Source: Gemmatimonadota bacterium (GTDB lineage Bacteria > Gemmatimonadota > Gemmatimonadetes > Gemmatimonadales > Gemmatimonadaceae). Taken from it: a DNA stretch of 64,000 nt. Below the pieces are notes generated by a model, which saw only the letters and a program-made list of their open reading frames with translations, ran no database searches and had not been told where the DNA came from. The first letter of the stretch is position 1. The number at the start of each line of letters is the position of its first letter. The position numbers and the translations under genes are program-made. This document shows, piece by piece, positions 1 through 22,324 of this stretch. Location of the stretch: assembly GCA_028287235.1 (NCBI GenBank), contig JAQBQB010000006.1, positions 1 through 64,000 on the forward strand. The letters run 5' to 3'.

Positions 1-1
1 T

Positions 2-145
2 CCACCCGGATCCCAACGGAACGCGATCTCCGTGGCCAGGTTGCTCGCCCGGAACAACCGCAGCGAGTTGATCGTGCAGAACCGCGCCGGTCGCATTCGC
101 TCGAAGGACAGTCACGGCTCCGACCCGTTCCCGCCGAAGGGCTGA
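2..145 (+). CDS. C-terminal fragment of a DUF2188 family protein
   Basis: The window opens inside a reading frame that ends at the TGA at 143-145. The visible 47 residues end in KDSHGSDPFPPKG, the typical last segment of DUF2188 proteins, short proteins of unknown function. A preceding ARLLARNN...ELIVQNRAGRIRSK stretch also fits the family, in which a basic 'G.IR.K' turn precedes the DSHG.DP tail. The start lies left of the window, so length and promoter cannot be judged. It is 9 bp from the next gene and may belong to the same operon as the lysis-like genes. Confidence 0.75.
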   Translation, partial: PPGSQRNAISVARLLARNNRSELIVQNRAGRIRSKDSHGSDPFPPKG

Positions 146-2282: not shown

Positions 2283-2363
2283 GTGGGCATATCAACAGCA
2301 GTGTATACGGGCACGATCATCTGGACCGTGCTGGCACTAACCGGGGTCGTCATCTGGAATTGA
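2283..2363 (+). CDS. 26-residue single-pass membrane microprotein, copy 1
   Basis: A GTG-started frame of 26 codons with an AGG-type ribosome site six bases upstream (in GACGAGGTATTCA). The product is almost entirely one transmembrane helix: VYTGTIIWTVLALTGVVIWN. It is too short for ordinary gene callers. Support comes from a second frame at 22191 that encodes a clearly related peptide (shared pattern Y.G.IIWT, an Ala, then GVVIW). Both copies are followed within about 25 bp by a nearly identical GCCTGG...CCAGGC hairpin. It follows the lysis-like genes here, but the other copy follows a metallophosphoesterase, so lysis is not an obvious function. No family is recognised. Confidence 0.6.
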   Translation: MGISTAVYTGTIIWTVLALTGVVIWN

Positions 2364-2385
2364 CGGTTCCCGGTTGAAGTGAGGA

Positions 2386-2424
2386 GCCTGGCGATGCTAC
2401 GCGTCGCCAGGCTGTTCTTGTTTT
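2386..2424 (+). terminator. rho-independent terminator after microprotein copy 1
   Basis: A perfect 9-bp stem, GCCTGGCGA pairing with TCGCCAGGC (2386-2394 with 2404-2412), encloses a 9-nt loop and is followed by the T-rich run TGTTCTTGTTTT. It lies 23 bp after the microprotein stop and closes the rightward lysis-like operon before the convergent gene at 2490. The stem resembles the one at 22289. Confidence 0.8.
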
Positions 2425-20665: not shown

Positions 20666-20814
20666 TGCGATCCATCCAGGTAAGAGTTGTGACAAGGACC
20701 CGCCGCGGGACCCGCTTATTCCCTTCCCCCCCACGCGGGAATAAACAACCGCATCCATGAGTCTCCATGTCGCGCGCTCAGCACTGCCGACCTCACTACT
20801 GGAGAACCATTCGA

Positions 20815-22158
20815 ATGACTCACCACGATGACCGCGACGCCGAGCGGTTCGACGAGCAGGGCAACACACGGCCGACGGGCAGCAACTTCATCACCACCGA
20901 CCAGAGCGACGACGGCGTCGATCGCCGCGGCTTTCTCCGATGCATGGCGTGGGCGGGCACCGCGACGGTGTGGGGCATGGCGGGGGGCATTCCCAAGTCG
21001 TTCGCTGTGAGCCGACTCCCCTTCCTCACCGACGCCGAGCGCAAGAGCGTCTTCTTCGCGCAGATTAGCGACAGCCACATCGGCTTCAGCAAGGAGGCGA
21101 ACAAGGACGTCACGGCGACGCTGCAGGAAGCCGTCGCCAAGCTCAACGCGCTGCCGCAAAGTCCGGCGTTCGTGCTGCACACCGGCGACATCACGCAGCT
21201 CGCCAAAGCCGAGGAGTTCGACACGGCGAACGAGGTGCTCAAGGGCATCAAGAGCGACCGCGTCTTCTATGTGCCGGGCGAGCACGACGTGGCCACCGAC
21301 AACGGCGCATCGTATCTCCAGCGCTACGGCAAGGGCACCAAAGGCGGCGGCTGGTACAGCATGGATCACTCGGGCGTCCACTTCATCGGCCTCGTGAACG
21401 TGTTGAACCTCAAGGCCGGCGGCCTCGGCACACTCGGACCGGACCAGATCGCGTGGCTGAAGAAGGACGTAGCCGGTTTGCCGAGCAGCACGCCGATCGT
21501 GCTGTTCGCGCACGTGCCATTATGGACCGTGTATCCCGAGTGGGGCTGGGGCACCGACGACTCCGAGCAGGCGCTCGGCCTCCTGAAGCGCTTTGGGTCG
21601 GTGACGGTGCTGAACGGCCACATTCACCAGATCATGCAGAAGGTGGAAGGCCACATGTCTTTTCACACCGCGATGTCCACCGCGTTTCCGCAGCCCACGC
21701 CCGGCACGGCACCCGCGCCCGGACCCATGAAGGTCGACGCGGACAAGCTCAAGAGCGTGCTCGGTATCGCGAACGTGACGTTCATTCCGGGGCGGAGCGC
21801 GTTGGCTGTCGTCGACTCGACGCTGTCCGGCGAGCCGCCGGCATTCGAGGCGGCGTCGCACGAGGCGATGATGAAGCGGCAGACGGCGCGGACAACCAAC
21901 CCGCTCGGGCCCGACGAGATCGGCATCGACAACTTCAACTTCACGCCGCAGGTGCTCACCGTGAAGCGCGGCACCAAGATCACGTGGATCAACAACGACG
22001 ACGTGCCACACCTGATCGTCAACGTGCAGAACAAATTCAAGCAGTCGCCGGTGCTCGATACGGATCAGCGGTTCAGCACCACGCTGTCCACGCCGGGAAC
22101 GTACAAGTACTTCTGTTCCCTGCACCCGAAGATGCAGGGAACGATCGTCGTCAACTAA
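20815..22158 (+). CDS. Tat-exported metallophosphoesterase fused to a cupredoxin
   Basis: A 447-residue fusion. A twin-arginine signal (DRRGFLRCMAWAGTA) is followed by a calcineurin-like phosphoesterase with all metal motifs: AQISDSHIG, LHTGDITQ, VPGEHDV (where GNHD is usual), FAHVPLW and NGHIHQI. From about residue 365 a plastocyanin-like domain follows: FNFTPQVLTVKRGTKITWIN with His in VPHLIV and the copper loop YFCSLHPKMQG giving Cys, His and Met. Such a fusion suggests a periplasmic phosphoesterase whose copper site supplies electrons, a sensor function or copper delivery. The start was chosen for GGAGAACC upstream. The microprotein at 22191 follows after 32 bp. Confidence 0.88.
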   Translation: MTHHDDRDAERFDEQGNTRPTGSNFITTDQSDDGVDRRGFLRCMAWAGTATVWGMAGGIPKSFAVSRLPFLTDAERKSVFFAQISDSHIGFSKEANKDVTATLQEAVAKLNALPQSPAFVLHTGDITQLAKAEEFDTANEVLKGIKSDRVFYVPGEHDVATDNGASYLQRYGKGTKGGGWYSMDHSGVHFIGLVNVLNLKAGGLGTLGPDQIAWLKKDVAGLPSSTPIVLFAHVPLWTVYPEWGWGTDDSEQALGLLKRFGSVTVLNGHIHQIMQKVEGHMSFHTAMSTAFPQPTPGTAPAPGPMKVDADKLKSVLGIANVTFIPGRSALAVVDSTLSGEPPAFEAASHEAMMKRQTARTTNPLGPDEIGIDNFNFTPQVLTVKRGTKITWINNDDVPHLIVNVQNKFKQSPVLDTDQRFSTTLSTPGTYKYFCSLHPKMQGTIVVN

Positions 22159-22190: not shown

Positions 22191-22268
22191 ATGCTCAGGC
22201 CAGGGATCTACGGCGGCGTCATCATCTGGACGCTGGCTGCGGTCGCCGGCGTCGTGATTTGGGCGTAG
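22191..22268 (+). CDS. 25-residue single-pass membrane microprotein, copy 2
   Basis: An ATG frame of 25 codons encoding MLRPGIYGGVIIWTLAAVAG followed by VVIWA. It aligns with the 26-residue product at 2283: both have Tyr-x-Gly, IIWT, an Ala-containing middle and GVVIW at the end. The ribosome site is weak. It lies 32 bp after the metallophosphoesterase-cupredoxin gene and 20 bp before a hairpin whose stem is nearly that of copy 1. The conserved peptide in two unrelated contexts argues for a real tiny gene carried with its own terminator. Function unknown. Confidence 0.6.
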   Translation: MLRPGIYGGVIIWTLAAVAGVVIWA

Positions 22269-22288: not shown

Positions 22289-22324
22289 GCCTGGTGGCGT
22301 TATGCGCCGCCAGGCCCTCTTTGG
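22289..22324 (+). terminator. hairpin terminator after microprotein copy 2
   Basis: GCCTGGTGGCG (22289-22299) pairs with CGCCGCCAGGC (22305-22315) with one G-U pair around a TTATG loop, followed by CCTCTTT. The stem shares the GCCTGG...CCAGGC ends and CGCC centre with the terminator at 2386. Confidence 0.75.

Follow-up and report, generated by a model that had tools for sequence, protein, structure and literature searches.

The window, a stretch of 64,000 nucleotides from a Gemmatimonadaceae genome (assembly GCA_028287235.1, contig JAQBQB010000006.1), begins at a contig end (C7:1) and carries there a phage-derived lysis operon whose last gene is a micro-ORF followed by an intrinsic terminator (Table 1). 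A second micro-ORF with its own terminator stem (copy 2) stands isolated some 20 kb downstream, and a third copy lies on contig C1 of the same genome (C1:498777-498857, peptide VNIQDVSIFSGVIIWTLAAVGGVVIWA). Copies 1 and 3 occupy the final gene position in homologous operons, in which holin-like, Amidase_2 endolysin and spanin-like coiled-coil (coil) genes precede the micro-ORF and its terminator; between C7 and C1 the amidases are 86% and the coil proteins 68% identical. Neither the holin-like nor the spanin-like protein matched a named holin or spanin family, and a family search with the 120-aa TM/coiled-coil protein, the first complete cassette gene in the window, gave nothing above cut-off.

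Table 1. Coordinates of the lysis operon and of the two micro-ORF units in the window
Feature	Position	Strand	Remarks
DUF2188-like gene, 3' end	1..145	+	cut by contig start; complete homologue in L066 matches PF09954
TM/coiled-coil protein, 120 aa	155..517	+	N-terminal hydrophobic segments and coiled coil
Holin-like membrane protein (PLLEKN family), 124 aa	514..888	+	47-48% identity to phage-contig proteins
Amidase_2 endolysin, 186 aa	888..1448	+	Pfam PF01510, E 3.9e-14; PHROG endolysins
Spanin-like protein, 253 aa	1473..2234	+	N-terminal TM, long helix, beta domain, C-terminal beta hairpin (low-confidence model, pLDDT 55; too uncertain for fold search)
Micro-ORF copy 1, 26 aa	2283..2363	+	VGISTAVYTGTIIWTVLALTGVVIWN; GTG start at 2283, TGA 2361-2363
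Copy 1 intrinsic terminator	2385..2413	+	13-bp stem, 3-nt loop, T-rich tail
Micro-ORF copy 2, 25 aa	22191..22268	+	MLRPGIYGGVIIWTLAAVAGVVIWA; ATG at 22191, TAG to 22268; isolated, weak SD
Copy 2 terminator stem	22289..22315	+	stem search and folding

An SD-like GAGG lies upstream of the copy 1 micro-ORF, and a GC-rich hairpin begins 21 nt past it. This stem and that of copy 2 fold far better than shuffled sequences (z -5.3 and -3.8, respectively), and an Rfam scan of the window gave no matches. The original prediction held that the 26-residue frame and its terminator (2283-2424) closely match the second unit near 22191. The similarity is real, with copies 1 and 2 retrieving each other at E 0.004-0.007 in a six-frame peptide search of the whole 5.7-Mb genome; DNA identity over the core is only 61%, and the close relative of copy 2 is the C1 copy, which the same search recovered at E 1.5e-5 with the copy 2 query and 0.005 with the copy 1 query. 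The prediction that both units share a GCCTGG...CCAGGC stem was borne out, with two occurrences in the window against 0.13 expected. Likewise, a hydrophobic peptide with a G-x(3,4)-W-x-stop tail is encoded by exactly 2 of the 446 small ORFs (17-30 aa) in the window, copies 1 and 2. A generic genome-wide terminator sequence was rejected: there are 19 GCCTGG..CCAGGC sites, four of them long near-perfect stems as judged by eye, and three of these four lie at micro-ORF copies. A highly repeated dispersed element was rejected on the count of only three copies in 5.7 Mb, and prophage attachment ends were rejected on the host-type genes that lie between copies 1 and 2 and on the 61% identity.

Copy 2 and the C1 copy share 94% DNA identity over 111 bp from mid-ORF through the terminator (linker 21/21 identical, stem 93%, ORF 76%), and their N-termini are unlike. 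Copies 1 and 2 do follow unrelated genes, as had been noticed, but this does not extend to copies 1 and 3, which follow homologous ones. The gene upstream of copy 2 (20767-22158) encodes a metallophosphatase with a fused C-terminal cupredoxin domain that is conserved in 6/6 genomes of the genus, with orthologues in all five congeners. Because the micro-ORF is absent behind this gene at five orthologous loci in four congeners (G001, G003, G004 twice and G005; the match in G002 stops before the gene end and is left out of this count), copy 2 is most simply read as a lineage-specific insertion whose nearest relative is the C1 copy. Its weak SD and differing N-terminus suggest that it may no longer be expressed. 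On our reading, copy 2 arose when the 3' end of such a lysis operon was duplicated and came to lie, as a stray, behind a host gene, with the terminator possibly its useful part.

The lysis genes recur within the genome and in phages. On contig C9 the amidase gene and the coil gene keep this order, the amidase gene of C31 is truncated, and C18 has a related amidase within an apparently real prophage. C1 and C31 both stop at one and the same base within the holin-like gene; breaks in the assembly caused by repeated cassettes would produce such ends. At the C31 remnant (G000:C31:116077-116821), a GCCTGGC hairpin about 430 bp off suits the neighbouring SusD-like gene. The same gene order occurs in IMG/VR phage contigs, and eight IMG/VR contigs hold relatives of the amidase; the holin-like protein is 47% identical to that of L097 and 48% to that of L104, where it adjoins amidase and coil genes, and the phage contig L103 encodes a homologue of the coil protein. 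The C9 and G005 cassettes lie amid host genes with no tail or capsid genes around (this was judged on these two, the window copy being cut by the contig start). The cassette is therefore a phage lysis module of which stand-alone versions are now also present in chromosomes. No micro-ORF was recognised in the phage modules L097-L104 or in the cassettes of C9, G024 and G198:C63/C332, so the micro-ORF is not essential to such cassettes. The coil gene on C9 ends in GGVVIWT, the result that a deletion joining it to the end of a micro-ORF would give, and short GTGTCATCCTGAGGGAG repeats follow it (L065:18280-18500).

A search for further copies in the genome and in relatives had been proposed, and relatives do have copies in addition to the third one on C1. 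In a search of 396 genomes, the coil gene was found only in the own genome, G005, G093 and G198, and the holin-like gene in six genomes. The congener G005 (JAICWO010000006.1, Gemmatimonadaceae MAG) encodes a micro-ORF, MLAIISDVVIWGVCALGTVIIWS, 166 nt past its coil gene, with a strong SD (GGGGAGG) and its own strong terminator-like hairpin of different sequence. Three tiny hydrophobic ORFs (20, 22 and 20 aa) and then a terminator follow the coil gene on G198:C197. Downstream of DUF2188-like and TM/coil genes on G204:C123, the micro-ORF and its terminator are duplicated in tandem (309 bp). The two units encode two copies of MLYWLICLAT[ST]GYC[IT]W[SM], each preceded by the SD AGAAGGAGAGA and followed by a GGAGCCTGGC terminator; the leader is conserved in this duplication, and a long hairpin lies between the ORF and its terminator. 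This interval has the peptide without a holin, endolysin or coil gene. All nine micro-ORF peptides end in Trp-x-stop, and most copies have the GCCTGG/CCAGGC stem core with compensatory changes. A filter for SD, hydrophobicity and an aromatic tail over 910 kb of redundant sequence yields these peptides and four unrelated frames.

Other genes are found near these cassettes. A VQRFLD-motif helical protein of 235-330 aa lies upstream of them (L065:15152-15859 on G000:C9, and relatives). It is multi-copy, with at least one match in 46/396 genomes and up to six per genome among the matches listed; most copies are not near lysis genes, and many lie at contig ends. It gave no family match above cut-off and no significant viral match in a fold search. 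Linkage of the micro-ORF to this gene alone was rejected, as the other VQRF copies, both in this genome and elsewhere, lack a micro-ORF, except that on G204:C123. Near the G198 cassettes, opposite-strand proteins (L085:2716-3303 and L086:3331-3942) resemble CHAP or NlpC/P60 hydrolases by eye, and a sigma-factor-like gene adjoins one of the two.

The micro-ORF peptides have 17-27 aa, and their best 15-residue Kyte-Doolittle means range from 1.4 to 2.7 in the seven measured. Searches of Pfam, NCBIfam, PADLOC and PHROGs gave no match at a meaningful E value, the peptide pattern had no matches in viral contigs, and the micro-ORF DNA had none in phage and plasmid collections. Like phage holins and spanins, the peptide is a predicted membrane protein encoded in lysis cassettes. 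Unlike holins, it has one short TM stretch and no periplasmic domain, a layout that fits none of classes I-III (class III holins have one TM and a large periplasmic domain; PMC9636201), and, unlike two-component outer-membrane spanins, the window peptides have no lipobox Cys. In the window-type peptides, the conserved residues (W, A+4, G/T+7 and W+11) fall on one helix face, a pattern that would suit packing of short membrane helices.

This helix-face pattern and the terminal place of the micro-ORF in a lysis operon lead us to favour a peptide that is probably an accessory of the phage-derived lysis cassette. Translation of the micro-ORF would start from a Shine-Dalgarno site of its own at the operon end, and the peptide would enter the inner membrane as a single short helix. 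There it would probably self-associate, or pack on the holin-like or spanin-like protein, through its Trp/Ala/Gly face, and packing via W, A+4, G/T+7 and W+11 may help or time membrane disruption. The full reading, in which the micro-ORF genuinely encodes a single-pass membrane microprotein and stands last in the operon, and the hairpin is the operon's intrinsic terminator, is one that we hold with middling confidence. More tentatively, the minimal Trp-x-stop membrane peptides could form a family that moves as a peptide-plus-terminator unit, with which bacteria and domesticated phage cassettes trigger or tune lysis; we regard this wider reading as rather doubtful. The original prediction of a microprotein-plus-terminator cassette holds insofar as the two parts have been copied together (copy 2/C1, and the duplication in G204), but copy 1 belongs to a lysis operon of phage origin, of which it is the 3' end, and its terminator simply closes that operon.

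The main rival to the lysis-accessory reading, which we judge unlikely, is a type-I-toxin-like membrane peptide that depolarises the cell in the manner of Ibs or ShoB; as a toxin unit it would ride in lysis operons, and its bidirectional terminator would also end an antisense RNA. IbsC has 19 residues and ShoB 26, and membrane type I toxins usually have fewer than 60 aa and one TM helix (PMC8309996). The micro-ORF peptides fit this size and hydrophobicity with their one predicted TM helix, and their loci are sometimes duplicated, as are those of Ibs, ShoB, Ldr and TisB. The tandem duplication in G204, with its leader and long hairpin, and the symmetric flanks of the C1 terminator (GAAGAA and TTTTCTTC) are also consistent with a toxin unit. 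However, cationic residues, generally C-terminal, are a common feature of such toxins (PMC8309996), whereas the peptides have 0-1 positive charges and none at the C-terminus. Copies 1 and 3 and those of G005 and G198 sit, operon-like, 1-166 nt behind a gene of the same direction, a sigma-70 scan of the copy 1 region gave no promoters, and the loci differ from Ibs, ShoB, Ldr and TisB, which were compared by description, in having no known antisense RNA.

It is also not likely that the terminator alone is selected and that the ORF, untranslated or without function, was merely carried along with it as a remnant. The perfect linker and well-kept stem of copy 2 and C1 beside an ORF of lower identity point that way, as do the SD and N-terminus of copy 2 and the compensatory changes in the stem core. 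For C7 and C1, however, a codon test in which base differences were shuffled over positions found that 11 of 18 core residues are kept against 6.3 expected (p ~3e-4), although the linker behind the stop is only 50% identical; the stem retains its pairing via compensatory changes. The core is thus conserved at the peptide level, which supports translation of the micro-ORF. The same test was weak for pairs with G005 (p 0.01-0.29) and gave no signal for copy 2 versus C1 (p 0.25), and the comparison of C7 with copy 2, the one other pair outside this weak or uninformative group, is not independent of that with C1. The micro-ORFs of G005, G198 and G204 also combine good SDs with the shared C-terminal pattern, and G005 retains the peptide though its terminator sequence differs. 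Least probable is that the micro-ORF encodes a C-terminal membrane segment which split off from the spanin-like protein and anchors it in trans: the C9 and G198 coil proteins end FVGGVVIWT and GIGTTLWG, and the coil homologues of G093, L103 and L097 have a TM-like stretch at the C-terminus, but the C7 and C1 coil proteins retain their own C-terminal hairpin besides the micro-ORF, and the G204 peptide has no adjoining coil gene.

The DLP12 SRRz/Rz1 genes of E. coli K-12 are a domesticated prophage lysis module that has been proposed to regulate vesiculation (PMC7918800). The Gemmatimonadaceae cassettes similarly keep holin-, endolysin- and spanin-type genes as a chromosomal operon; unlike DLP12, they use different protein families, occur in several copies per genome, have a VQRF-type helical protein and a DUF2188-like gene as neighbours, and in some cases end in a micro-ORF. 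Lysis operons with a terminal peptide of 17-27 residues occur in a few soil Gemmatimonadaceae. To our knowledge, the phage biology of Gemmatimonadota is little described, and the micro-ORFs add to the multi-copy phage-derived lysis cassettes of this phylum a family of unannotated microproteins whose genes are too short for standard gene callers. If translated, the micro-ORF peptide would be among the smallest proteins linked to lysis, and the cassettes pose the question of why Gemmatimonadaceae retain several stand-alone lysis operons.
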